A stretch of DNA of 37,709 nt from a virus: the IMG/VR virus record IMGVR_UViG_3300006737_000071, positions 1-37,709 of that record; one strand, written 5' to 3'. Both the position numbers and the translations under genes were made by a program. The notes beneath the pieces were generated by a model that saw nothing but the letters and a program-made list of their open reading frames with translations, made no database searches and was not told where the DNA came from. Of the stretch, positions 4,836 through 22,960 are shown in pieces; position 1 is the first letter of the stretch, and every line of letters starts with the position of its first letter.

Positions 4836-6050
4836 ATGGCATTTACAACATTAGTTGATTATTCTAGACAGTTAAGACAATTCCAAGATACAAGTGCTGA
4901 GTTTTCTGGTAATACAAAAATTTTAGGTACTCTTGAGTTGGGGGCTGTAATTACCGATGGGGACATTGTTGGTTATCCTTATTATTCTAAATTTTATATG
5001 AGTTCTAGTACTGTCACTACAACTCCTTATATGAGATATAGTCCAGTTACAAGGGCTTGGGAATTTACAATGCCGTATCCTAATAACAGTAGTTCTGTTT
5101 ACGAAGTTAATAGAATGAAATTTAATCTTAACGATAATGGATTAAACGGTCAGTACGGAGTGTTTTCACAACAAACAGTTTTTAGGTATAAATCCAGTGA
5201 TTGGACAAATATCGAAAATGGGGGTTATCATAATCCAGCCACTGTTATGATTATAGGTAGTGGTACTACAAGTGCTAGTACCGCATTTACAGTTTCAAAT
5301 TACGACGCATCTACCGGTATTGGGATGACTGGTTTAACTATTGACGATGGAATGAATATTAGAATTGGTGATCGAAGACCATATGCTAATGTTGACTCAA
5401 ACACATGTCAAGTTTTTCTAGGTCCAGGGGGAGTGTTAAATAACGTAGAACTTTTTGATACTTTGAAAATTGGTTCCGAAGGACTTGTTGGTACAACCGC
5501 TTCCTTAAGGCACTTAAAAATGAACATTGATTATGAATACGATAGTTCTTGGGTTTATAATCTAAAACCGGCACAATTTGAGTTTAAGAAGTTTCCAGGA
5601 AATGTACAATATGGTCTTATAGCGGAAGATGTTAACGACATTAATCCTAATTTCGCTAAATTTAATAGTGATGGTACATTAAGAGGGGTAAAAGATGAAC
5701 TATTATCTTCTGTTATTCTTAAAGAATTAATTGAGTTAAGAAAAAAAGTTGATCCGGATTTCAGAAAAGATTATGAAGAAGATAAAGTAAAAGTGATATC
5801 AAGCGACTATGATATTATTCATGATGGTACAATAATTGCTCGTGGTGGTAATGAAATTAAATTAAATATTTCTGAGTCTTTATCAGGAATAGTTAGGATT
5901 AAATCTTTGGCGAATGTTACAGTAAGTTCTAGTAGATTAATAGATGAAAAGTGGGAAGAAATGCAATTAGAAAACGGTAGTAGTATTAGTTTATTGTGTC
6001 ATGAAGAATTTATTTACATACTTTCTTCAGACGGAGACAAGATTAAATAA
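4836..6050 (+). CDS. Fibre/appendage protein with S74 intramolecular chaperone domain
   Basis: A 404-residue protein. Residues 1-215 are rich in Ser, Thr, Asn and Gly with beta-repeat character, as in trimeric fibres. From about residue 220 comes a peptidase S74 type chaperone domain: SLRHLKMNI has Ser223 and Lys228 at the five-residue spacing of the catalytic Ser-Lys pair, followed by YNLKPAQFEFKK, YGLIAEDVNDINP and a long C-terminal helix (LSSVILKELIELRKK). In this family the domain folds the trimer and then cuts itself off before the serine. Unusually, about 90 further residues of strand-rich sequence follow the helix. The gene starts 6 bases after the gp13-like gene, so it may form a neck-attached fibre as fibritin does beside gp13 in T4; this is inference. 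Confidence 0.8.
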   Translation: MAFTTLVDYSRQLRQFQDTSAEFSGNTKILGTLELGAVITDGDIVGYPYYSKFYMSSSTVTTTPYMRYSPVTRAWEFTMPYPNNSSSVYEVNRMKFNLNDNGLNGQYGVFSQQTVFRYKSSDWTNIENGGYHNPATVMIIGSGTTSASTAFTVSNYDASTGIGMTGLTIDDGMNIRIGDRRPYANVDSNTCQVFLGPGGVLNNVELFDTLKIGSEGLVGTTASLRHLKMNIDYEYDSSWVYNLKPAQFEFKKFPGNVQYGLIAEDVNDINPNFAKFNSDGTLRGVKDELLSSVILKELIELRKKVDPDFRKDYEEDKVKVISSDYDIIHDGTIIARGGNEIKLNISESLSGIVRIKSLANVTVSSSRLIDEKWEEMQLENGSSISLLCHEEFIYILSSDGDKIK

Positions 6051-7818
6051 AACTTAACTGGTCAATTAAACTCTCCACAATATCATCTTGGGAGTACTCA
6101 CCCATTATAGTGTCGATATTTTTTTGTTTACTCTTAAGTGATTTATATATAATTTCTTCAACTGTCTTATCAAAAATAGGGTAGTAAACATTAACTTTTT
6201 TATTTTGTCCAATTCTATAAGCTCTGTCTTCGGCTTGAGAGTGAGATTTTGGTACCCAATCTAAACTATTCATTATAACTACTTCTCCTTCTGTTAGAGT
6301 AATACCAACACCAGCGGACATTATATTACCAATAAAAACTCTTACTTTGTTGTTTGTTTGAAATGACTCAACACTTTTTTCTTTTTCTTCTAATGACATA
6401 GAACCATTATGTCTAACAGCAACTTTTTTGAATTGGTCAAATATAATTTGTTGTTCATTGTTAAAATTTGTAAAAACTATTACTTTTTTACCTTGTTCGA
6501 CTAAATCTTTTATAAATGGAATTGTGTGTCTTGTTTTCTCTTCTGCTAAAAACTTTCTAAGAGTTACTAATTTAGTCATGTGTTGTGCTAAATTGGCATG
6601 ACCGTGTTTAAGAGACCAGGATTTGTATTCTCCCATTATTTCTTGATATCCTGAAGCGTTTTCGAGTTGGTGATATATTGGTGATACTATTTTTGGTGGT
6701 AAATCTATAATATCTTCTTTTTTTCTCCTAAGGATACAATCTTGAGTATATTCATGAAGTTCTTGTAAATTTGAGGCCCCTTTTGTGTCCCATATTAATC
6801 TTCCTCCCTGTCCTCTAAATCTTTTAGCATCACAATACCTTTTAACAAAATGTACCCAATCCTGACTAATTGTAGTTCTACATATTTTTAATAAGTTATA
6901 AAAATCTATAGGTCGATTTGCAACTGGGGTACCAGTCAATAACCACACTTTTTTAATTTTTTTAACAAAATCCATAACAATTTTAGTTCTTTTAGATGTT
7001 GTGTTCTTAATAGCGTGAGCTTCATCAACTATAACAAGATCAAAATCAGAATTTGTAATTACACTTTTTGTTGTTTGTGACACCCCCTTATTTTTTGTAG
7101 GTAAAAAGTGAAAGTTTTTAAGAATATCAAAATTAATTATATTCCATTTTTTTGTTTCCCCCCATTTTTTTCCATTTATAATATTAATATCTTCTTCACT
7201 ATCATAGTTACCAATTTCTTTTTTCCAATTTAACTTTAAGGAAGAGGGACATACCACTAATATTCTTTTTGCCCCACTTAATTTAGCACCTATTACTGCG
7301 GATGTAGTTTTACCTAATCCCATGTCATCAGATAATATAAACCTATCGTACTCTAATAATTTTATAATAGCTTCTCTTTGATGAACCATTGGTGGACGAT
7401 GTGAATACTCCTTATAATCTATTACACCTACTTCATTTTTTACCCTTTCTTTAACAATGTGTTTTTTAGGTATCCATACCATAGTTGGGGAATTTTGGTT
7501 TTTACTAAATTTAACCATTACATGTAAGGTATCCTTCATATTTGATAGGATTTTAACTATGTTAAATTTTAATGGGGTTTTAACTAAAAGGTGTTCTTCT
7601 TGTAGTCTTGTGGCAAAGTAATTACTGACACATATCTCTTTATCCACCTCTACAGGAATTTTTCTATAGTTATGTTGGATATACTCAATTTGTTTTTGGG
7701 TAGGTTTAATACTACTTGAATTCTTAAATCTGGCTTTAAGAGTTAGTAAATAGTCGTTCTTACCTTCGTAAGTCTTAACTAAAGATATGTAATCTTTTAT
7801 ACGGTTTGGATCCAGCAT
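6043..7818 (-). CDS. SNF2-family DNA helicase/translocase
   Basis: A 591-residue superfamily 2 ATPase of the SNF2 type, related in layout to SMARCAL1-like and bacterial SNF2 proteins. Motifs are complete: Q-motif region VHQREAI (145-151), Walker A DDMGLGKT (164-171), DEAH (265-268), LTGTP (294-298), a second RecA lobe with VIVFTNF and, near 528-538, QAEDRAYRIGQ. The first 140 residues form a separate N-terminal region that may bind DNA. It probably remodels replication or recombination forks, a job that UvsW does in T4. It is the only large minus-strand gene and lies between the gp13/fibre and gp14/gp15 units; its stop overlaps the fibre stop by 8 bases. Opposite orientation suggests early or middle expression apart from the late genes. 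Confidence 0.93.
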   Translation of the reverse strand: MLDPNRIKDYISLVKTYEGKNDYLLTLKARFKNSSSIKPTQKQIEYIQHNYRKIPVEVDKEICVSNYFATRLQEEHLLVKTPLKFNIVKILSNMKDTLHVMVKFSKNQNSPTMVWIPKKHIVKERVKNEVGVIDYKEYSHRPPMVHQREAIIKLLEYDRFILSDDMGLGKTTSAVIGAKLSGAKRILVVCPSSLKLNWKKEIGNYDSEEDINIINGKKWGETKKWNIINFDILKNFHFLPTKNKGVSQTTKSVITNSDFDLVIVDEAHAIKNTTSKRTKIVMDFVKKIKKVWLLTGTPVANRPIDFYNLLKICRTTISQDWVHFVKRYCDAKRFRGQGGRLIWDTKGASNLQELHEYTQDCILRRKKEDIIDLPPKIVSPIYHQLENASGYQEIMGEYKSWSLKHGHANLAQHMTKLVTLRKFLAEEKTRHTIPFIKDLVEQGKKVIVFTNFNNEQQIIFDQFKKVAVRHNGSMSLEEKEKSVESFQTNNKVRVFIGNIMSAGVGITLTEGEVVIMNSLDWVPKSHSQAEDRAYRIGQNKKVNVYYPIFDKTVEEIIYKSLKSKQKNIDTIMGEYSQDDIVESLIDQLSFI

Positions 7819-9896: not shown

Positions 9897-12728
9897 ATGG
9901 CAAATCAAGTAGTAGTATCACCAGGAGTTTATACATCAGAGAAGGACCTTTCGTTTGTTGCTTCTAGTGTTGGTATAACACGTTTAGGTATGGCGGGTGA
10001 AACATATAGAGGACCTGCGAACCAACCAATATTCGTAGGAGACTATGATACATATAAAACATATTTTGGACCACAAAAAACAGAACAATATTGTTTATCA
10101 CAACCTTGTGCAGCGGGTTCAACAAAACACCCAAGATATGAAGCAACATATATAGCTAGAGCTTATTTAAGTGAGTCAAATAATTTATGGACTACACGTA
10201 TATTAGGTAGTACAGGTTATGATGCAACAGAGGGTTTAGTAATTAATTTAGGTATTGGTACAACTAATACTGGTGCGGCAGGACAACAAGTACAGTCAAC
10301 AAGAAGACTGTCAGCAACAACGGCTTGTGTAATTAGAGCTAGAAAATATTACGGGGCGTCAACATTCAATCAACCAAATATTCATATTGGTGTAGTACCA
10401 ACACAAGGTTTTGACACTTACGCTAATAACGCAGCTTCACCTACATACGCAGCTAATGGATTTATGATTGGTGGTAGTGGTACGGCAGGAGCATTAATCG
10501 CAGGAGGTGCGTGGGCAAATGCAACAGGAGACTTTACAATCGCAGCTAAAAGACAAGCTTTCGCAGGTGTAGGTGCAGCAGACGATAGATACTTAGTTAG
10601 TTTTAACCCAAATAGTAATAACTATATTACAAAAGTTCTTGGAACTAATCCTTACTATGACCAAAACAACCCAGACCAAAGACTTTACGTTGAACAAATT
10701 TATATTAACGCAGTTAAACAAATGGGTAAAGAATGGGGTGGTTCAGCGGCTAACAACTATTTAGATGTTATTGAAGATATGTCGTTCTTTAATCTACAAA
10801 CTACTTGGAAAAACTATACGGACACTTGGCAACCAACAGCAACACCAGATGGACCACAAACTCCGTGGATTTATTCTGAGGTTAGAGGTACTGAAATAGT
10901 TAAATTATTTAGACTTATTCTAATATCAGATGGTGATACAGCTAACGACTTCTTAAAATTCTCAATTCTTAACATAGACATTGATAATAAAACATTTGAT
11001 ATTGCGATTAGAGCTTATGGAGATTCTGACGCTAAACAAGTGATATACGAACAATATAAAAATATAAGTCTTAACCCTATCAGTCAAAATTATATAGGTA
11101 AGAAAATTGGTACATTAAACGGAGAGTACGCATTAAGATCACGTTATATAATGGTTGATATTGATGAAAATTGTCCAGTAGATGCAGTACCTGCGGGTTA
11201 TGAAGGATATCCAACAACAAATTCTTCAGGTAACTTTGGTAACTTAAGTGGAAGAACTCAATCTCAAGGAACAGGTGCGGCTGACGGATTAGCACTTCAC
11301 TCAAGAGTAGAACCTTTTGCTTATTATAATGTTTCTTATGATTTAGTTGCTGATAATATCAGAAAGACTTATCTAGGTTTAGGAAGTAAAATGGGTTGGG
11401 ACCAAGATATGTTCGATTATCATGGGTGTGCGACTAACGGTACAAACTCAGGTGGAGACAGAACATTATGTGCGGCGGCTTGGTCAGGTAAAACTTATGG
11501 TTTCCATATGGATACTAGAGCTTCTGGTAGCACATTCTTACAAAATACAAATGCTGGAGATTACAGAGTATGGTTCTCAGGTTCTGTTGGAACTTTCCCA
11601 TTCTATGCAACTTCATCACAATATACTGTAAACGGATATTACGGACCTAATAGTTCAAATTCAGCAACATCGGCTAAAAATGTTTACTATAATAAAAAAT
11701 ATAGAAAATTCACTGTATTCCCTTATGGGGGACATGATGGATGGGAACCATATAGGTCAGTACGTAGTAATACGGATTTATGGAAAGAAAACGCAACTTA
11801 TTACACTGCGGGATACGGTTCAGGAGCAACAGCAGTAGCGGCTTCAGGAGACTTCCAGTTTAATAAAACTTCTGATTGGTACGCTTTCCAAACAGCTATT
11901 CATAAATTTGCTAATCCAGAAGAAACTGATATAAATCTATTTGCAAGCCCAGGTATTGATTATACTAATAACTTAACTTTAGTTAACGATACTATTGAAA
12001 TGGTTGAAGATGATAGAGCAGATTCTTTATATATTGTTACATCACAAAACTATAAAGACCAAGGAGTTGAAAATGCAGTTGACGCTTTAGATGACGCAGA
12101 CATTAATAGTAATTATGTGGCAACATATTGGCCTTGGATACAATACAATGATACAGAAAATAACGTTAGACTATATTTACCACCAACTTGTGAAGTATTA
12201 AGAAATATGGCAATTACTGATAATGTTGCTTTCCCATGGTTTGCGACAGCAGGTTATAACAGAGGAATTGTTAAGGCTAACAAGGTAAGAAAAAATCTGA
12301 CACAAGATGATAGAGATGATTTATATGAAGCTAGGATTAATCCAATTGCGACATTTACAGCAACAGGACCTGTTATTTGGGGTAATAAGACCTTACAAAC
12401 AGCAATGTCTGCACTTGATAGAATTAATGTTAGAAGATTACTTCTTAGAGCAAGAAAATTAGTATCAGCAGTTGCGGTTAGATTAATATTTGAACAAAAT
12501 GACGAAATAGTAAGACAAGAATTCTTAAGTTTAGTTAATCCGATTCTTGAAGATATCAGAAGAGATAGAGGTTTAACAGACTTTAAGGTGGTTCTTTCTA
12601 ACGACCCAGAAGAAATTGATCAAAACAAGTTGACAGGTAAGATTTTTATTAAACCAACTCGTTCATTAGAGTTTATTGAAATAGAATTTAATATTACACC
12701 TACCGCTACAAGTTTTGATGATATATAA
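9897..12728 (+). CDS. 18: Tail sheath protein A (gp18-like)
   Basis: A 943-residue contractile sheath subunit. The N-terminus (VSPGVYTSEKDLSF, then RGPANQPIFVGDYDTYKTYFG) is the linker arm and first domain of the gp18 family. The last 259 residues, from PGIDYTNNLTLVN (residue 685) onward, hold the conserved core, including TYWPW, FPWFATAGYNRG, LNPIA-type NPIATF, RRLLL and the final LTGKIFIKPTRSLEFIE strand. The polymer surrounds the tube and shortens on infection. T4 gp18 has 659 residues; the excess lies in the surface-exposed middle. It is followed after 24 bases by a longer paralogue with the same ends. The start is preceded by a late promoter and an A-rich leader. Confidence 0.95.
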   Translation: MANQVVVSPGVYTSEKDLSFVASSVGITRLGMAGETYRGPANQPIFVGDYDTYKTYFGPQKTEQYCLSQPCAAGSTKHPRYEATYIARAYLSESNNLWTTRILGSTGYDATEGLVINLGIGTTNTGAAGQQVQSTRRLSATTACVIRARKYYGASTFNQPNIHIGVVPTQGFDTYANNAASPTYAANGFMIGGSGTAGALIAGGAWANATGDFTIAAKRQAFAGVGAADDRYLVSFNPNSNNYITKVLGTNPYYDQNNPDQRLYVEQIYINAVKQMGKEWGGSAANNYLDVIEDMSFFNLQTTWKNYTDTWQPTATPDGPQTPWIYSEVRGTEIVKLFRLILISDGDTANDFLKFSILNIDIDNKTFDIAIRAYGDSDAKQVIYEQYKNISLNPISQNYIGKKIGTLNGEYALRSRYIMVDIDENCPVDAVPAGYEGYPTTNSSGNFGNLSGRTQSQGTGAADGLALHSRVEPFAYYNVSYDLVADNIRKTYLGLGSKMGWDQDMFDYHGCATNGTNSGGDRTLCAAAWSGKTYGFHMDTRASGSTFLQNTNAGDYRVWFSGSVGTFPFYATSSQYTVNGYYGPNSSNSATSAKNVYYNKKYRKFTVFPYGGHDGWEPYRSVRSNTDLWKENATYYTAGYGSGATAVAASGDFQFNKTSDWYAFQTAIHKFANPEETDINLFASPGIDYTNNLTLVNDTIEMVEDDRADSLYIVTSQNYKDQGVENAVDALDDADINSNYVATYWPWIQYNDTENNVRLYLPPTCEVLRNMAITDNVAFPWFATAGYNRGIVKANKVRKNLTQDDRDDLYEARINPIATFTATGPVIWGNKTLQTAMSALDRINVRRLLLRARKLVSAVAVRLIFEQNDEIVRQEFLSLVNPILEDIRRDRGLTDFKVVLSNDPEEIDQNKLTGKIFIKPTRSLEFIEIEFNITPTATSFDDI

Positions 12729-12752: not shown

Positions 12753-15700
12753 ATGGCGAATCAAGTTTCATTGTCTCCAGGAGTATATATTTCTGAAAGA
12801 GAACTTACATTTAGTACACCAACTGTAGGAGCTACAACTTTAGCTACTGTGGGTGAGACCTTAAGAGGTCCGGCTCAACAACCTATTTTTGTACAATCAT
12901 ATGATGAATATAAAACCTATTTTGGTGGACTAGACACAACAATCTTTTCAGGGACATCAATCCCAAAATACGAACAATCTTATATTGCTAAAGGATTCCT
13001 AAGTGAATCCAACTCCCTATTTGCGGTTAGACCTTTAGGTTACGCCGGATATAACGCAGGTAACGCTTGGAACCTAATTGTAAGTTATGTACCAAATTAT
13101 GATAATGTAATGAGGGCATATGGAGGTGGATGTACGGCTGGACAATGTGGTGAAGTAAGTGCCAATCAATTTGGGGGAACAGGAATACCAATGTTAGATC
13201 CAGATGGTAATGCAATAAGTTCAACAGTACCATCAATATATGCAGGGGCTGGACCAGCCGCTCAACCAGGTATGTTAAGTGGAGGAACTTGGGGTTATTT
13301 AATGTCTGATAACAATGAAGGATATGTAAATGGGGCACAATTTACAAATGCAGATGCGGCAGGTGCCGGTCAAGGATATATGTTCGATTATCCTTCATCA
13401 CAATCAATGATGATAATTTATTCTGCTGACACTTATGGTGGACCAGGAAGAATGGTTTTAACTGGTAGTACTGGAGGTAACTGGCACACACAAGGAGGTA
13501 AACCTTGGGTATCAGGTATATTACCTTACCCAATGAATTTAATGAGTGGACAAACATTTGTTATCACATCAAATGAATCTACAGGAGGTGCTAGAAGTAT
13601 TGCAGGTACATTACAAACAAATGGTCAAAATGGTTTTGAAGTACCAAGAGTTATGTCTCAAACAAATGCAACAACTTACCCGAATATTAATTGGGGACCA
13701 GCAGTTTCTGTATATGACCCAGCAGATACTTCAGAATCACCTTTATCACCAACTAAATTAATACATGCGGGAGATGACGGAACCAGAGACATACAACCAA
13801 TAGGTTACCCAGCTACAGGATACACAGTAGAATTTAACTGGAAATTTGGTAATCATATTGGATACCATACTGGGGGTACTACAGGTTGGACTGCACAAAC
13901 CTCTGGTACAGTTTACACTTGGAGTGGAAAAACTCAAGAAATGGTAGTTGCCACATTAAGAAGTAGAGGAAAATATGCAGGAGATGTATTCTCTGCAAAT
14001 GTTGCGGGAGATCTAAATCCTCCAGGTGTTACAGATTTCCAATCACCTTCATTTGGTGTTAGAAATACTGTATGTGACGGTACTGTGGCTACATGTCCGG
14101 AACCAAGAATTGTTGATATTAATACAACTAACTATAAACAAGATTTTTATCTTTCTGGTTATACTAACACAACAGGGGGTAATTTTAATTATGAAGTTAA
14201 TTTAGACGCCAATTCACAAAAATATATAACAAAAGTTTTAGGTACCAAAAAATTTGATAAAAACACTCATATGTGGGTGGAAGAAAATTATCCTAATACT
14301 TTAAGCCAATTAGCAGCGTCTGCTGTTACGGTTTCTAATCTTAGATTTGGACAGGTAGGTAGTAATATATCAGCAGGGGCATCCTTTTCAGATTATACTG
14401 AAGATTGGCAACCATTAGGTGCAGTTGAGGGACCAGCTACACCTTATATTGTTTCAGAAATAAGAGGTGAAAATATATTTAGATTATTTAGATGTATTTT
14501 AATAGCTGATGGAAACACAGCAAATAACTCAGTTAAAATATCAATCCAAGATATTGATGTTAATAATAAAACTTTTACATTAACAGTAAGAGAATTTTCT
14601 GACACAGATACAAATCAAAGAATAATAGAAGCTTATACCCAATGTACCCTTAATCCAGAAAGTCAAAATTATATAGGTAAGAAAATTGGTACAGAAAACG
14701 GAGAATATGCGGTTAGGTCAAAATACATAATGTTAGAGTTTGATGAAAACTGTCCATTAGATGCTTTACCAGCAGGGTTTGAAGGTTATTTAATTAGAAA
14801 TTACAGTGGGTCTACATATGCAGACACTACATATATGAATCCACCACTAGAGGCAACTATAACAGAACCATCTGGTTGGTATGGTAATATTGCAGCTAAA
14901 CCATTTTATAACTTAAAATATGATATTGTTGCGGATGATATAAAAAAGACATATTTAGGATGGTCCTCAAAAACAGGTATTGACCAAGACTATGTGGACT
15001 ATAAAGGTTTGAATGGTACTTTAACACAAACATCACCATATAAATGTAGTGCAAACGGTACGTTATGGACCGGTAAAACAAAAGGTTTCCACTTTGATAA
15101 AAGAGTTTCAGGTTTAACATCTAGTGATGTCGTACAATACAATGTAGGTTCTTATAATTTCTATACTAGTGGAAATACACTACTTGGAGATGTTGGTAAT
15201 TATTATACAAATAAAGATTATCTTAAGTTTACAGTATTACCTTATGGAGGACATGATGGATGGGACGAATACAGAATAACTAGAACCAACAGTGATTTAT
15301 ATGTAATAGGTAAAACAAATTATAATACATTTTGGTATAACCAAAGTTTCACCAATATAAGTTGTGAGGTCACAGATTACTATGCTTATTTTGATGCAAT
15401 GAGAAAGTTATCTAATCCTGAGGAAACACCTAGTAGTTTATTTACTACTCCAGGTATTGATTATACCAATAACTTAACTCTAGTCAATAAAGCTATTCAA
15501 ATGATAGAAAATGATAAAGGAGACTCACTTTATGTAGTAACCTCATCTAACCCAGCTAATCAAACTGTTGACGGGGCAATAACAAATTTAGAAAATGCAG
15601 CGTTAAGTAGTAATTATGTAGCAACATATTGGCCTTGGACTAGATATAAAGATACTGAGAATAATGTTAGACTTTATATGCCACCAACAACAGATGTGGT

Positions 15701-16232
15701 AAGAAATATGGCAAGAACAGATAATATTTCTTTCCCATGGTTTGCAACAGCTGGTTACAGTAGAGGTATGATGAATGTGGATAGAGCTAGAATTAAACTA
15801 ACACAAATAAACAGAGACGATTTATACGAATCAAGACTTAACCCAATCGCAACATTTAATGGGGTAGGTGTTGTTATATGGGGACAAAAAACCTTACAAA
15901 CAACAACTTCAGCTTTAGATAGAGTTAATGTTAGAAGATTATTATTGTACTTAAAAACTAGAATTAAAGATGTTGCAATACAACTATTATTCGAACAAAA
16001 TGACGATATAGTAAGACAACAATTCCTAACTCTAATCAACCCAATTTTAGAAGATGTAAGAAGAGATAGAGGTTTGAACGATTTCCAAGTTAGACTTAGT
16101 GATACGGCAACAGAACTAGATACTAATAAGTTAACAGGTAAAATATTCATAAAACCAACTAAAACACTAGAATTTATCGAAGTAGAATTTAACATTACAC
16201 CATCTAGTGTTTCATTTAATGATATAGGTTAA
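12753..16232 (+). CDS. 18: Tail sheath protein B (gp18-like, enlarged paralogue)
   Basis: A second complete sheath subunit of 1159 residues. It shares the N-terminal arm (SPGVYISERELTF) and a C-terminal core of equal length (259 residues from PGIDYTNNLTLVN, residue 901) with its neighbour, and both share YITKVLGT and IGKKIGT blocks in the middle. The YITKVLGT block is near residue 242 in A but near 489 in B, so B carries about 245 additional residues between roughly residues 120 and 489, rich in Gly, Ala, Ser, Thr, Tyr and Trp. That suggests an extra domain on the tail surface. The gene is intact, with no frameshift, and has no promoter of its own visible, so it is probably co-transcribed with A. 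Whether both enter the same sheath is unknown. Confidence 0.95.
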   Translation: MANQVSLSPGVYISERELTFSTPTVGATTLATVGETLRGPAQQPIFVQSYDEYKTYFGGLDTTIFSGTSIPKYEQSYIAKGFLSESNSLFAVRPLGYAGYNAGNAWNLIVSYVPNYDNVMRAYGGGCTAGQCGEVSANQFGGTGIPMLDPDGNAISSTVPSIYAGAGPAAQPGMLSGGTWGYLMSDNNEGYVNGAQFTNADAAGAGQGYMFDYPSSQSMMIIYSADTYGGPGRMVLTGSTGGNWHTQGGKPWVSGILPYPMNLMSGQTFVITSNESTGGARSIAGTLQTNGQNGFEVPRVMSQTNATTYPNINWGPAVSVYDPADTSESPLSPTKLIHAGDDGTRDIQPIGYPATGYTVEFNWKFGNHIGYHTGGTTGWTAQTSGTVYTWSGKTQEMVVATLRSRGKYAGDVFSANVAGDLNPPGVTDFQSPSFGVRNTVCDGTVATCPEPRIVDINTTNYKQDFYLSGYTNTTGGNFNYEVNLDANSQKYITKVLGTKKFDKNTHMWVEENYPNTLSQLAASAVTVSNLRFGQVGSNISAGASFSDYTEDWQPLGAVEGPATPYIVSEIRGENIFRLFRCILIADGNTANNSVKISIQDIDVNNKTFTLTVREFSDTDTNQRIIEAYTQCTLNPESQNYIGKKIGTENGEYAVRSKYIMLEFDENCPLDALPAGFEGYLIRNYSGSTYADTTYMNPPLEATITEPSGWYGNIAAKPFYNLKYDIVADDIKKTYLGWSSKTGIDQDYVDYKGLNGTLTQTSPYKCSANGTLWTGKTKGFHFDKRVSGLTSSDVVQYNVGSYNFYTSGNTLLGDVGNYYTNKDYLKFTVLPYGGHDGWDEYRITRTNSDLYVIGKTNYNTFWYNQSFTNISCEVTDYYAYFDAMRKLSNPEETPSSLFTTPGIDYTNNLTLVNKAIQMIENDKGDSLYVVTSSNPANQTVDGAITNLENAALSSNYVATYWPWTRYKDTENNVRLYMPPTTDVVRNMARTDNISFPWFATAGYSRGMMNVDRARIKLTQINRDDLYESRLNPIATFNGVGVVIWGQKTLQTTTSALDRVNVRRLLLYLKTRIKDVAIQLLFEQNDDIVRQQFLTLINPILEDVRRDRGLNDFQVRLSDTATELDTNKLTGKIFIKPTKTLEFIEVEFNITPSSVSFNDIG

Positions 16233-17082: not shown

Positions 17083-17571
17083 ATGGCAGATTTACTAATG
17101 AAAATGCCGGTTCCTTACGAACCAAAGAGAAAGAATCGGTTTATAATGAAATTTCCATCTGACTTAGGTATAGCAGAGTGGATAGTATCTAGTGCGGCTA
17201 GACCATCAATAACAATTAATGAAGTTGAAATTCCGTTTCTTAATACTAAAACATTTGTTGCTGGTCAGTTCCAGTGGGAGACTATTGACGTAACATTCAG
17301 AGACCCTATTGCTCCATCATCATCTCAAGCATTAATGGAATGGGTAAGACTACACGCAGAGTCAGTAACTGGTAGAATGGGTTACGCTGCAGGTTACAAG
17401 AAAAAAGTAGACCTATTTATGCTAGACCCAACAGGTGCGATTGTTGAAAACTGGGAATTAAGAGGAACTATGTTAACTAACGTTAATTTTGGTGACTTAG
17501 ATTACAGTGGAGATGATTTAGCAGATGTGTCAGCTACTTTAAGATTTGATAGAGCAATCTTAAAATACTAA
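17083..17571 (+). CDS. 19: Tail tube protein (gp19-like)
   Basis: A 162-residue protein, almost exactly the length of T4 gp19 (163). The pattern YEPKRKNRFIMKFPSDLGI at the N-terminus, IPFLNTKTFVAGQFQWETID (residues 60-80), VTFRDP, then LFMLDPTGAIVENWEL and the final DVSATLRFDRAIL strand are diagnostic of contractile-tail tube subunits, which stack as hexameric rings round the tape measure. It has its own late promoter and is followed by a terminator, so it can be expressed at a higher level than the downstream chaperone gene. Identification is firm. Confidence 0.95.
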   Translation: MADLLMKMPVPYEPKRKNRFIMKFPSDLGIAEWIVSSAARPSITINEVEIPFLNTKTFVAGQFQWETIDVTFRDPIAPSSSQALMEWVRLHAESVTGRMGYAAGYKKKVDLFMLDPTGAIVENWELRGTMLTNVNFGDLDYSGDDLADVSATLRFDRAILKY

Positions 17572-17690: not shown

Positions 17691-18470
17691 ATGTCAGAAC
17701 AACCTAAAACAACCAAACAAGACACAAGTGTCTTTACAGTCCCTTTTGATGTTATAGAACTACCTTCTAAAGGATTACTATATCCTAGTTCGGACGGTAA
17801 TCTAAAAGTTGAATATATGACCGCAGAGGATGAAAATATCCTAACCTCACCAAACCTAGTACAATCAGGAAAAGTTTTAGATGTTTTAATTGAACGTAAA
17901 ATTAAAGACGATCAATTAAAAGCTAAAGACTTATTGGTAGGTGATAGAAACGCAATTATGGTATTTTTAAGGTCTACTTCTTATGGAGAAATGTATCCAG
18001 TTAAACTAACAGATCCTGAAACAGGTGAAGAGTTTGAAACAGAAGTCGACTTATCAAAATTACCAGTTAAATCAATAGGAGCTTCACCAAACGAAGAGGG
18101 ATTATTTGAATTCAACCTAAAAAGGATGAAAAAAGATATTAAATTTAGATTATTAACTTCACAAGACGAGGAAAATCTAATTAAAGCCGAAGAAAAAAGA
18201 AAAAAACTACTAAAGACACAAGTTTCTAAACTATTAACTAATAGATTAGTTACTCAAATTGTCGAGGTAGACGGTAATAGAGATAAAAGTTATATCGAAC
18301 AATTCGTTAACTACCTTCCAGCGGGAGATTCACTAGACTTGAGAAAGTATATAGATGATATCGAACCTGGTATAGACCTGAGGGCAGACGTGGAGTCACC
18401 TTCAGGTGCCGTGTTTCGCAGTCTCGTTCCAATTACAGTCCAATTTTTTTGGCCTAACGTCAGACTATAA
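17691..18470 (+). CDS. Baseplate hub / tail-assembly chaperone-like protein (gp26/gp51 family)
   Basis: A 259-residue protein of the T4-type baseplate protein family: FDVIELPSKGLLYP (residues 20-33), EYMTAEDENILTSPNL, a helix with VLDVLIERKI, and MVFLRSTSYGEMYPVKLTDP, ending in a conserved VQFFWP. Family members assist assembly of the hub or tail core. It lies between tube and tape measure, exactly where P2 E/E' and lambda G/GT chaperones lie. The zero frame ends 6 codons after FFWP, while the +1 frame stays open for another 178 bases. The junction has a run of seven T (18444-18450), so a fraction of ribosomes may shift and add 65 residues. It depends on read-through of the upstream terminator or an unseen promoter. 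Confidence 0.8.
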   Translation: MSEQPKTTKQDTSVFTVPFDVIELPSKGLLYPSSDGNLKVEYMTAEDENILTSPNLVQSGKVLDVLIERKIKDDQLKAKDLLVGDRNAIMVFLRSTSYGEMYPVKLTDPETGEEFETEVDLSKLPVKSIGASPNEEGLFEFNLKRMKKDIKFRLLTSQDEENLIKAEEKRKKLLKTQVSKLLTNRLVTQIVEVDGNRDKSYIEQFVNYLPAGDSLDLRKYIDDIEPGIDLRADVESPSGAVFRSLVPITVQFFWPNVRL

Positions 18471-18648
18471 AACAGAGTTATATAAACAAATATATATCTT
18501 AGTTAAGCATTGTGGTTTTACGAGAGCAGACGTGATGGTCATGCCAATATATGAAAGAACTATTTATATTGGTGAATTAGAAAGAGAATTAGAAGAAAAA
18601 CAAAAAGCCCATAAGGCCGCAGAAAGAAAAGCTAAATCAAAGAGGTGA
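18406..18648 (+). CDS. Out-of-frame extension of the chaperone-like gene (frameshift product or overlapping gene)
   Basis: Reading in the +1 frame relative to the preceding gene. From 18451, right after the seven-T run, it encodes GLTSDYKTELYKQIYILVKH followed by GFTRADVMVMPIYERTIYI and a Lys/Glu coiled tail. The stop TGA lies inside the terminator stem that closes the unit, as expected of a real gene end. Shifting +1 or -2 on TTTTTTT would fuse it to the first 253 residues, giving about 318 residues. Alternatively it starts on its own at GTG 18406, with GGAG 10 bases upstream; the first 15 residues would then be mere overlap. No ATG is available in the non-overlapping part. I favour the frameshift. 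Confidence 0.7.
   Translation: MPCFAVSFQLQSNFFGLTSDYKTELYKQIYILVKHCGFTRADVMVMPIYERTIYIGELERELEEKQKAHKAAERKAKSKR
18444..18450 (+). other. Candidate slippery site, run of seven T
   Basis: CAA TTT TTT TGG in the zero frame. Phe-tRNA on TTT can re-pair after moving +1 or -2, and both enter the open downstream frame (GGC CTA ACG). A -1 shift would meet TAA after two codons. The zero-frame stop is at 18468. Confidence 0.6.
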
Positions 18649-18665
18649 TAACACCTCTTTTTTTT
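18640..18665 (+). terminator. Strong rho-independent terminator
   Basis: AAGAGGTG pairs perfectly with CACCTCTT around loop ATAA, followed by six T. The stop codon of the extended chaperone frame (18646-18648) lies in the stem. Confidence 0.92.
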
Positions 18666-18697: not shown

Positions 18698-20344
18698 TTG
18701 AAAACTGAAGAAAGACGACATAAACGTATTAAAGAATTAATGGGCATTAAACCTAAATTGATTTCTGAACAAGGATATGATGATAGTGTGGCCGACTATT
18801 TAGCCACTGGACTTGAAACTGGTGAAACAATTGGAAGAAGTTTATTTGGTAGAACATCCAGCCCCAACGATTGGAAATTAGACCCTAGTGATGGGGTAAC
18901 ACCCGGTGGGATTGATGTAACAGATGCAGCAACAAGTGCAGTAGATGCAAGATTAGCAACACAAGCCGCTAGAGACCTACTAGGTAATACACCAATATCA
19001 CAAGGATTTGTAAATCATGTAGTTTGGAAATACTTTGACGATACAGGACCTTTTGGGTTTACTTATTCCTTCACAGAAGATGTAGTTATTGGTGAGACCA
19101 GAATATTAGCCGATAAAAGTCACACAACCAAAAATGCGGAGTATATTAAATCAACAAATACTATTGTAATAGATGATATTGAGGTAGATAAAACTGAAAA
19201 TGATGAAACAGTAACAGGAGACACAACTACAGTTAAAAATAGAAACCAAAAAATAGTAGATCTTTTTAATAAAGTGGGGATAAAATTAGACACTAAACAT
19301 CCTTTGGTTATATATTTTAGGAAAAATATACGTCCAGTGTTGAGAAGAATGAAAAAAGAATTTCCTGAGTATAAAATAAATTTTACTGACCAAGCAACTA
19401 AATGGGAAGGTGAAGAAGTTGTGGTAGACCATTTTTTAACAACCAAAGACATATTACTAGAAGGGTATAAGGAAACATTAACTCAACTCATGAAATTAAA
19501 AGCGGCCAAAAAAGCACAGAAAAAAGATAGTAAAATGATTGGTGTGCTAGATAAAGAAATAAAAAAAGAAACACAAAACCTACTAAAAATAATAAAACCT
19601 AAAATACAAAACATTTTCAAAGAATCGAGTAAATCGATTAAAGATATAGAAATGGTTAGGTTTGTTATATACCTAAATGCCTTTCTATCACAATTAAAAA
19701 AGGACTATCCACAATATAGTATAACTTATGGTGATTTAGTCTTAAAAGAACAGGAAGAAACTAAAGAAAAAATAGGAATATCAATAACTTTAGCAAAAGG
19801 ACAGGATGAGGTATACATTGGTAGAACCTATCCATGTACAGTTAAAGTTGGTGGAAAAGAAGCTGGTAGTAATAATGTAACAATACTTGATGTCGATTCT
19901 AAATTTGTAAATAAAGGTAATAAGGGTAGTGGTCCAGTAAAATCTAATATAGATGGTAAGGAAGACAAAGTTGAAGAAGAAAATTCATACACATTCCCAA
20001 AAGCTGGTTCAAATTATGGAGATAAAGGTAAAAGATTTTGGGTAACAATGACAATAGATGTAGAACCTGTGAATTATTTATTAAATAATGCGGCGACAAA
20101 TAAACTAAAAGCTTATAAAGAATATGTTTATGTTGTTGAAATGTTATTTAATGGTTTTAGAATACAAAGAATAAATAGTAGTGACTTTTTAGACCAAAAT
20201 TTTGGGGCAGAAGATATAAAATTCTTATTCGACGATGATGTAAACACAGTAACATTCCAAAAACCTTATCAAATAGAGGTTCTTGCTGGTGATAAGTCAT
20301 TAGGTAAGTTAAACATAACAGTAGATAACATAGAAAGAAAATAA
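18698..20344 (+). CDS. Hypothetical 548-residue late protein before the tape measure
   Basis: I do not recognise this protein. The TTG start gives a basic N-terminal helix (KTEERRHKRIKELMGIKPK) followed by LISEQG; an ATG at 18740 would begin at MGIKPK. The TTG is preferred because of its spacing from the promoter and because the helix looks like real sequence. Residues 30-130 are acidic and Gly/Thr-rich, 150-300 hold Lys-rich helices (KLKAAKKAQKKDSK), and 340-548 are strand-rich, like Ig or carbohydrate-binding modules (VYIGRTYPCTVKVGG; PYQIEVLAGDKSLGKLNI). It lies between chaperone and tape measure and is separated from the latter by 6 bases, so a tail-core or baseplate role is likely, but unproved. 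Confidence 0.7.
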   Translation: MKTEERRHKRIKELMGIKPKLISEQGYDDSVADYLATGLETGETIGRSLFGRTSSPNDWKLDPSDGVTPGGIDVTDAATSAVDARLATQAARDLLGNTPISQGFVNHVVWKYFDDTGPFGFTYSFTEDVVIGETRILADKSHTTKNAEYIKSTNTIVIDDIEVDKTENDETVTGDTTTVKNRNQKIVDLFNKVGIKLDTKHPLVIYFRKNIRPVLRRMKKEFPEYKINFTDQATKWEGEEVVVDHFLTTKDILLEGYKETLTQLMKLKAAKKAQKKDSKMIGVLDKEIKKETQNLLKIIKPKIQNIFKESSKSIKDIEMVRFVIYLNAFLSQLKKDYPQYSITYGDLVLKEQEETKEKIGISITLAKGQDEVYIGRTYPCTVKVGGKEAGSNNVTILDVDSKFVNKGNKGSGPVKSNIDGKEDKVEEENSYTFPKAGSNYGDKGKRFWVTMTIDVEPVNYLLNNAATNKLKAYKEYVYVVEMLFNGFRIQRINSSDFLDQNFGAEDIKFLFDDDVNTVTFQKPYQIEVLAGDKSLGKLNITVDNIERK

Positions 20345-20350
20345 TAAACT

Positions 20351-22960
20351 ATGGCAGAAGGAGCTACAGGTGCGGAAAGAATAAAAGAACTCGAACAACA
20401 ACGAGCCCTACTTCAATGGATGATAGACAACCAAAGAAGGGTTAACAATGGGGTAAAAGAACATCTTAAAGCTAGACAACAATTACTGGCGGTTGAAGAA
20501 CAAATTGCTTCAGCCGAAAAACTTGTTATCGAAACCAAAAAAGAAATTGCCAAATTAGAAAAAGAAAAAGAAACAGCTAATAAAAAGAGACAAAGGGCGA
20601 TTAAGAAAGAAATTCGTTTTCTAAAAGAATTTAATGCAGAAAATGAACGTACCGTTGATATACAAAAAAAGGAGAGAGACGAATTAAAAAAGACACTCAG
20701 TCTTAAAAAGGCAATAGGTAATGAAGTTAAGAAACAAGTTATTGCCCTCAACAAAGAATTATTCAATGTTAAAAAACTTAAATCATTTTATCTAGAAATA
20801 GATAAAGGAGTTAGGTTAACCACAGAATCCTTAGGTTTATCGGCAGGTTCTTCAGACATTCTTAGACAAAATTTATTAGATGCTTCACAATACGCGGCTA
20901 GATTTGGTGTTACCGTTGCTGAAATGGCTAAAGTACAAAAAGATATTGCTAGAGTAACAGGAAGAAATTTATTAGCTTCTAGAAAGAATTTTGAAGCAAT
21001 ATCAGGTATGGTAAAATTAATACCAGATATTGGTGATATTATAGGTGAATTAAATAAATTTGGTTATAACATGGAAGACTCCATGAAATTAGTTGAAGAA
21101 GTTTATAACTACGCAGGTAAGATAGGGTTAAATGCCGAAGAATTTAGTAAAAACTTTAGAAAAAACTACCAACTAGCGTCTAGATTTAGATTCAAAAATG
21201 GTATCGCTGACCTTAAGAAAATAACTGGGGAAGCCCAAAGGTTAATGACAAATATGGAATCTATTGCTGGATTCGCAGATAAAGTTTTTAGACCAGAGGG
21301 GGCAATTGAGGCAGCTGCTCAATTACAAGTATTAGGGGGTCAATTTGGGAAACTAGGAGACCCTTTCAAACTAATGCATATGGCCAGAAATGATATGGCA
21401 GGTTTTGTTGATGAAGTAATGAATGCAACCAAATTTACAGCATTTTTTAATAAACAAACAGGAGAATTTGATTTGGCGGCCTCAGATTTAGATCGACTAA
21501 GAGAATTGGCTAAGATTACCGGTGAGGACTTCAAAACTTTAGCAGATAGGGCACTTCTACAATCCCAGTTCGGAATGATTGACCAACAAATACGAGCAAG
21601 AGTTAGTGCTGAAGATAGGTTAATGATACAAAATATGGCTAAGGTTGGTAAAGATGGTAGATTTACAATGGAGATTAAAGATGCATACGGACACGTACAA
21701 AAAGTAGTAGACGTTTCTAAACTAACTCCAGAAATGATTAAAGAAATGAGAGAAAATCAAAAAGCTCTAGAGGCCCGTTCTAAAGATTTAATGACATTCC
21801 AAGAAAACTTTGACGCAGTTGCTAATATGTTAAGATTAACACTTTTACCAGTAATGGAACTTCTTGGTGGTCTTGCACGTGATTTATCAGAATGGTTGGC
21901 AAATCTTAGCGATAGGATGAAAACAGTAATTTCTGTTGGTGTTATAGCATTGGGTGCTTTTTTCGCCTATAAATCTATGACAATTGCTGGAGGAATTTTT
22001 GGAGCCGCAGCTGGAAGAGCGATGGCAATGACTGGAGGAATGGCAGGTGGTGCGGGAATGGCGAGTGGTTCTCAAATGTTAGGTGCTGGTAAGATGCAAA
22101 AAGCTAGATTACTTGGTACTGCTGCGGTTATCGCAGCCATTGGGGCGGCGGTTATGATGGTAGGTGCTGGTGTTAATTTTGCAACTAAAGGATTTGCTAG
22201 ATTGGCCGAGAGTATGGCTTCATTACCAGTTACACACTTACAAGCTTTTAGTGATATAGTTAGTACTATTATGTGGTCAATGACCGCAATGATTGGAATA
22301 TTAGCTTTAACCGCTGCTGGTTTAATGGCGTTTGGTGCGATGGCTACAACTCCAGTAATGTGGGCGGCTGTTGGAGTGTTACTTGCAATAGGAGGTGCCG
22401 CGTTAATGTTAGGAGGTGGTATTGCTTTGGCGAGTTATGGTATGTCTCTTCTAGTCGCAGAAATGGCTAAATTGGGAGATTTTGCTGGAATAGGAATGGA
22501 AATGTTATTAATGTCCGCAGCAATAGCGACTTTAGGTTTATCTTTGGCGGCGTTAGGTTATACTTTAATGAACCCATTCGGTGCTGTTGGTGCAGTTGCT
22601 GGAATGGGAATATTATGGGCGTTTAGTGAAATGGGACCAAACCTACAAAAAGCAGGTGAAGGGGCAAAACTATTAACTACAAATTTATATAAATTAGGTG
22701 GTGCAGTATCATCTTTAGGAGATGATAATATGGGAGGGGCTCTAGGAAAACTAGAAAGAATTTCAAATTTAGTACAGAACACCAAAACAAACCCTATAAG
22801 AGTACTAGTTGAAGGAGATTTAGGAGGTAAGTTAGATCTAGATGTTGTTGGAGATTCAGGACTAAGAAAAATATTATTAAATGATGGTAGATTCCTAAGA
22901 GACCTAACAGAAGAAATAGAAGAAAGATTAAATCTTGACGCTAAAATAAGTGGAAAATAA
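20351..22960 (+). CDS. 29: Tail tape measure protein (gp29-like)
   Basis: An 869-residue protein with the layout of a tape measure. Residues 1-150 are coiled coil, rich in Lys, Glu and Gln (RIKELEQQRALLQWM onward); 150-520 are helical (phage-tail measure core, with QLQVLGGQFG near 325); 525-765 contain several long hydrophobic Gly/Ala-rich segments (VIALGAFFAY, AAVIAAIGAAVMMVGAG, AAVGVLLAIGGAALML) that could insert in the host inner membrane on ejection; the last 70 residues are polar. Such proteins fill the tube and set its length. At the usual 0.15 nm per residue the tail would be roughly 130 nm, longer than T4's. It follows the unknown gene by 6 bases. Confidence 0.88.
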   Translation: MAEGATGAERIKELEQQRALLQWMIDNQRRVNNGVKEHLKARQQLLAVEEQIASAEKLVIETKKEIAKLEKEKETANKKRQRAIKKEIRFLKEFNAENERTVDIQKKERDELKKTLSLKKAIGNEVKKQVIALNKELFNVKKLKSFYLEIDKGVRLTTESLGLSAGSSDILRQNLLDASQYAARFGVTVAEMAKVQKDIARVTGRNLLASRKNFEAISGMVKLIPDIGDIIGELNKFGYNMEDSMKLVEEVYNYAGKIGLNAEEFSKNFRKNYQLASRFRFKNGIADLKKITGEAQRLMTNMESIAGFADKVFRPEGAIEAAAQLQVLGGQFGKLGDPFKLMHMARNDMAGFVDEVMNATKFTAFFNKQTGEFDLAASDLDRLRELAKITGEDFKTLADRALLQSQFGMIDQQIRARVSAEDRLMIQNMAKVGKDGRFTMEIKDAYGHVQKVVDVSKLTPEMIKEMRENQKALEARSKDLMTFQENFDAVANMLRLTLLPVMELLGGLARDLSEWLANLSDRMKTVISVGVIALGAFFAYKSMTIAGGIFGAAAGRAMAMTGGMAGGAGMASGSQMLGAGKMQKARLLGTAAVIAAIGAAVMMVGAGVNFATKGFARLAESMASLPVTHLQAFSDIVSTIMWSMTAMIGILALTAAGLMAFGAMATTPVMWAAVGVLLAIGGAALMLGGGIALASYGMSLLVAEMAKLGDFAGIGMEMLLMSAAIATLGLSLAALGYTLMNPFGAVGAVAGMGILWAFSEMGPNLQKAGEGAKLLTTNLYKLGGAVSSLGDDNMGGALGKLERISNLVQNTKTNPIRVLVEGDLGGKLDLDVVGDSGLRKILLNDGRFLRDLTEEIEERLNLDAKISGK

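Follow-up and report, generated by a model that had tools for sequence, protein, structure and literature searches.

A probable +1 programmed frameshift joining gp26- and gp51-type domains in a T4-type tail assembly chaperone gene

The DNA analysed here, referred to as the window, comprises 37,709 nucleotides (positions 1 to 37,709) of IMG/VR virus record IMGVR_UViG_3300006737_000071. It carries a gp26-type chaperone gene followed by an out-of-frame extension (Table 1). The tail tube gene lies directly upstream of the chaperone, and a tape measure candidate, recognised by composition only, lies two genes downstream. This candidate (20351-22960) has no database match, and the genes downstream of the chaperone, the 548-aa ORF included, have no phage match. 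In Flavobacterium phage immuto, an annotated tape measure is found just downstream of the chaperone pair. Elsewhere in the window are two tandem tail sheath genes, at 9897-12728 (943 aa) and 12753-16232 (1159 aa), both matching phrog_23 (E<1e-54), which is unusual for a single contractile tail. Further, a helicase gene on the minus strand (6043-7818; phrog_62, 1.2e-99) is located on the opposite strand inside the structural gene block.

Read directly, the 0-frame codons at the end of the first ORF are GTC CAA TTT TTT TGG CCT AAC GTC AGA CTA TAA. The run TTTTTTT occupies 18444-18450, six codons follow, and the 0-frame stop lies at 18468-18470, as the initial annotation had described. Entered at GGC 18451, the +1 frame remains open for 65 codons and ends at the TGA at 18646-18648, inside a terminator-like stem of 9 pairs with a T tail (18639-18660); this part of the annotation is likewise confirmed. 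The -1 frame reads TTT TTG GCC TAA, an immediate stop at 18455-18457. A productive -1 shift at the window site, which the annotation had already excluded, is ruled out by this TAA.

Table 1. Features of the chaperone locus and its neighbours (positions within the window).
Feature	Position	Strand	Basis
TAC-N, gp26-type tail assembly chaperone, short form, 259 aa, 0 frame	17691..18470	+	PF12322, phrog_150, AF2 model
Putative shift site TTTTTTTGGCCTAAC; P-site UUU to UUU by +1, next codon GGC	18444..18458	+	identity in relatives
TAA, -1-frame stop right after the slip site, part of the invariant 15-mer	18455..18457	+	direct reading
TAC-C, +1-frame C-terminal extension, 65 codons + TGA; predicted fusion ~318 aa	18451..18648	+	phrog_634, profile match, pN/pS
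Intrinsic-terminator-like hairpin enclosing the TAC-C stop	18639..18660	+	9-pair stem with T tail
Tail tube protein, upstream of chaperone	17083..17571	+	phrog_4542 3.8e-28
Candidate tape measure protein, 869 aa, helix-rich, coiled-coil-like N-terminus	20351..22960	+	composition only
548-aa ORF, TTG start, between chaperone and tape measure candidate	18698-20344		no family above cut-off

The first ORF matches PF12322 (T4_baseplate) at 2.3e-11, above the Pfam cut-off, and the baseplate hub family phrog_150 at 2.5e-13, bearing out its initial assignment as a T4-type baseplate (gp26-type) protein. The extension matches phrog_634, 'baseplate hub assembly catalyst' (gp51), at 2.2e-5. Compared directly with T4 gp51 alone, its profile match is weak, and BLASTP of the T4 gp51 C-terminus against the window extension gives no match. 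The link to T4 gp51 runs instead via phrog_634 and the cyanophage profiles: parts encoded in the +1 frame match the -1-encoded gp51 parts of cyanophages (profile comparison, E=1.8e-10), and these in turn match residues 209-244 of T4 gp51 (profile comparison, E=1e-4). As judged by these profile matches, the first ORF belongs to the gp26 family, and the second part shares homology with the C-terminal domain specific to gp51.

An AF2 model of the short form has a pLDDT of 88.5 and finds gp26-family folds in BFVD, for example those of SP-15 and Vibrio VH7D. Foldseek comparison of the same model with the PDB returned nothing meaningful, the HK97 chaperone 2ob9 scoring E=4.1 with a TM of 0.16. The short form was consequently not placed in the lambda G / HK97 gp14 family proper, since the HK97 gp14 fold was not recovered by Foldseek. 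A sequence search of solved structures identified no relative (the best hit, 1i6z at E=0.08, is regarded as a random match), and bacterial and archaeal genomes, scanned twice, yielded none.

The same two domains (PF12322/phrog_150 and phrog_634) occur in T4 as a short form, gp26 (TAC-N), and a long form, gp51 (TAC-NC). Both proteins are listed as hub assembly chaperones in T4 work (PMC3004832). T4 uses two separate genes for them, whereas the window has one gene and a proposed +1 shift. In T4 the two genes lie on opposite strands. Gene 26 encodes 208 aa with the C-terminus EFFELL, and gene 51 encodes 249 aa; in gp51, a gp26-like domain (PF12322 3.9e-52) spans residues 1-201 and precedes the phrog_634 domain. 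The alignment of homologues proposed in the initial annotation thus finds the second part shifted in the window lineage and fused in one ORF in T4 gp51. The G-T frameshift has been described as conserved except in T4 (Atkins et al. 2016, PMC5009743), and the annotation had also treated T4 as an exception. T4 is no exception to the two-form principle, as its genes 26 and 51 are the short and long forms split into separate genes, which agrees with Vladimirov, Gautam and Davidson (2022). Nor do its relatives lack frameshift sites, as many other T4-like phages have a -1 site at this junction.

An IMG/VR scan recovered 59 relatives, with 37-100% identity. We compared 36 distinct sequences, comprising the window, 34 of the 59 relatives, and L160 from a separate scan. 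The junction layout is kept in the window and in all 35 distinct relatives, and TTTTTTTGGCCTAAC is unchanged in 35 of the 36 sequences, the sole exception being L160, with TTTCTTTGGCCTGAC. In IMG/VR record L014, the first ORF and junction are identical to those of the window. In every examined homologue with a complete junction, the first ORF stops a few codons past an FF-like motif and the second part is out of frame. Given this recurrence across sequences, chance is excluded as an explanation of the layout.

Past the 0-frame stop, the second ORF read in +1 has a pN/pS of 0.167, a value close to that of the first ORF (0.18). By this measure the extension shows the evolution of a protein-coding sequence when read in +1, and the first impression that it is sensible protein sequence stands, the phrog_634 match agreeing. 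The codons of FFWPN show 100% synonymous-codon identity, compared with a median of 54%, and rank first of 205 five-codon windows. Because these codons are synonymously frozen, the junction must be under nucleotide-level selection that exceeds the demands of the first protein.

We consider it very probable that this one gene encodes a short and a long T4-type tail assembly chaperone by means of a +1 programmed frameshift. The layout, conservation, coding selection, homology and, in some relatives, lack of start codons all support the initial annotation, by which a tail chaperone gene of T4 type is subject to programmed frameshifting; from them we infer ribosomal shifting itself, its efficiency and its function. 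Most ribosomes would terminate at 18468 and release the short gp26-like form, TAC-N. A fraction would slip by +1 on UUU UUU U, with the P-site Phe-tRNA re-pairing from one UUU to another before the UGG in the A site is decoded. These shifted ribosomes would produce a long form of about 318 aa, TAC-NC, with a C-terminal domain of the gp51 type. If lambda G/GT serves as the model, the tape measure protein may be coated by many short and a few long forms, which would also bring in tube subunits. Downstream of the site, no RNA structure proved to be conserved (shuffle z-scores of +0.2 to -2.1). RNAalifold gave a 6-pair hairpin overlapping the slip site, with no double-sided changes, and no Shine-Dalgarno-like stimulator was seen by eye near the window slip site.

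A shift of -2 would reach the same frame, and a -2 slip on TTTTTTT also re-pairs. It would lengthen the junction by one Phe, from QFFG to QFFFG, giving ...VQFFFGLTSDYK in place of the ...VQFFGLTSDYK expected under +1. Mu provides a known example of a -2 chaperone frameshift. Homologous sites point the other way. Read directly, those in L001, L003, L005, L007 and L008 are UUU-C, where a +1 shift re-pairs the Phe-tRNA on UUC, and the +1 sites examined let a slip lead from one Phe codon, UUU, to another, either UUU or UUC. Since several of these sites (AAC TTT CTA in L003, TTC TTT CGT in L005 and CTG TTT CGC in L008) allow re-pairing after +1 but none after -2, the +1 shift is favoured and a -2 shift is improbable. 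L001 and L160 carry TTTCTTTGG, which also argues against -2; their CTT T site resembles the RF2 (prfB) shift codon. Of the two directions offered by the initial annotation, +1 agrees with the homologous sites, and -2 misfits L003, L005 and L008.

Alternatively, TAC-C might be an independent gene, translationally coupled and started internally at GTG 18406, with no fusion protein made. This GTG is in the +1 frame, is preceded at a distance of 10 nt by GGAG and recurs in the closest relatives of the window, and the database entries for nt-1 and Sf-CH11 treat gp51 as a small gene of its own. Yet the corresponding GTG is absent in L029-L069. In five relatives (L052, L054, L058, L061 and L067), the +1 frame becomes open no more than 5 codons ahead of the junction, and there is no ATG, GTG or TTG in those 5 codons or the next 30, so the second part cannot start alone from those codons. 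In some cyanophage-type loci, such as L105-L110, a -1-frame stop lies just upstream of the heptamer. The frozen slip-site codons and the presence of both parts in one chain in T4 gp51 are further evidence against an independent gene, and we regard this reading as very unlikely. The conserved start of its own that the initial annotation named as a counter-indication is thus not shared by the homologues at large. In the window, GTG 18406 is a possible extra internal start for TAC-C, and the comparison of start codons shows that it is not a general solution across relatives.

RNA polymerase slippage on the T-run could also place the fusion in frame, through transcripts one base shorter or two bases longer. 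Seven consecutive T, as in the window, make a weak site for slippage, but the layout is kept where the run is interrupted, as in TTTCTTT (L001, L160), TTTCTATTC (L003) and CTGTTTCGC (L008), leaving little probability for this explanation. The original caveat, that a sequencing or assembly error in the T-run disguises one continuous gene, draws on the site being a homopolymer. It is refuted by the relatives: 35 of the 36 distinct sequences, drawn from many separate assemblies, have the same seven T, and junction sites in other lineages are not homopolymers.

The layout recurs among annotated phages, where the second part is in the +1 frame in immuto, Mel-JY01, LR756508, GXN1, LIS04, SP-15 and BRock, and in the -1 frame, at T TTT TTT or T TTT TTC, in XacN1, PA5oct and LR756511. 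We also compared a cyanophage-type set, made up of 80 loci that resemble a T4-like Synechococcus phage, together with two Vibrio phages of KVP40 type; in L129 and L153, the contig ends within the second part. All 47 distinct junctions of the cyanophage/KVP40-type set read NNT TTT TTC, then one codon, then the 0-frame stop, and a -1 shift leads into gp51. A similar -1 heptamer is present in the jumbo phages 121Q, Atu_ph07, Phosso, XaC1 and RAS14. The gp26/gp51 genes of cyanophages, KVP40-type phages and jumbo phages (121Q, Atu_ph07, PA5oct, XacN1) share with the window a homologous first part and the same FF junction, homology of the second part being shown by profile test for cyanophages and KVP40-type phages. 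They differ in the predicted shift, which is -1 at T TTT TTC or T TTT TTT, whereas that of the window lineage is +1 at TTT T or TTT C. Because profile matches join the +1 parts, the -1 parts and T4 gp51, three routes appear to lead to the same C-terminal domain: a +1 shift, a -1 shift and a simple fusion.

An unrooted tree of the first part (42 rows) requires at least two changes of shift direction. In it, well supported branches separate some -1 phages from others, so that these are not a single clade, and a single origin of +1 is compatible with it; BRock and LR756511 have long branches and unsure positions. We lean, by a little, towards the view that shift direction switched between +1 and -1 within one family while the FF junction stayed fixed, that T4 manages without a shift by having two genes, and that the +1 branch (the window, immuto, Mel-JY01, SP-15 and BRock) had not been described before.

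The two-form principle itself is not new, as T4-like tail assembly chaperones were identified by Vladimirov, Gautam and Davidson (2022, Virology 566:9-15), as cited in PMC12846349 and PMC10885494. According to PMC10885494, after that study, some T4-like phages use a short gene and a fused long gene with no frameshifting, and poly-T -1 sites in T4-like TAC-N genes are reported in PMC12846349, again citing Vladimirov 2022. The +1 direction, which is unusual for a locus of this known kind, and the direction switch inside one gene family may be new; no description of the +1 branch was found in titles and abstracts, a coverage that most subscription journals fall outside.

As in G/GT-type pairs, the window has an overlapping second ORF open across the junction and a conserved slippery site. 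Its pair would work like lambda gpG/gpGT by analogy, although the first part has no fold similarity to the HK97 chaperone and the lambda shift is -1 (Levin 1993; Xu 2004; reviewed in PMC5009743), in contrast to +1 in the window. By shift direction alone, the window can be likened to the archaeal myovirus HSTV-2, with its very likely +1 chaperone shift (PMC5009743), and to the forward chaperone shifts in SEA-PHAGES data (PMC10885494). By site and layout alone, it resembles the myoviruses of Andersonviridae and Vandenendeviridae (PMC12846349), which have a poly-T site at the TAC-N end and an out-of-frame extension, but with a GTTTTT -1 site, unlike the +1 of the window.

If this reading is correct, natural +1 and -1 sites performing the same job in one family would represent a comparative system for frameshift direction and efficiency. 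Small 'baseplate hub assembly catalyst' proteins in many T4-like phages would be frameshifted chaperone ends, and their annotations as separate genes would need correction. The features L073:2016-2189, L074:2477-2644, L076:2477-2644 and L164:2043-2252 are annotated as gp51 or 'hypothetical protein', as separate small genes after gp26 despite the joining -1 heptamer, and VH7D has no annotated feature under its gp51 match. In many cyanophage-type loci, a GGAGG-like sequence lies ~10 nt upstream of T TTT TTC (L077, about 2690-2720), for example TTG GAG GGT TTG CAA TCT TTT TTC. This element, absent in some loci such as L102, resembles the dnaX -1 stimulator.
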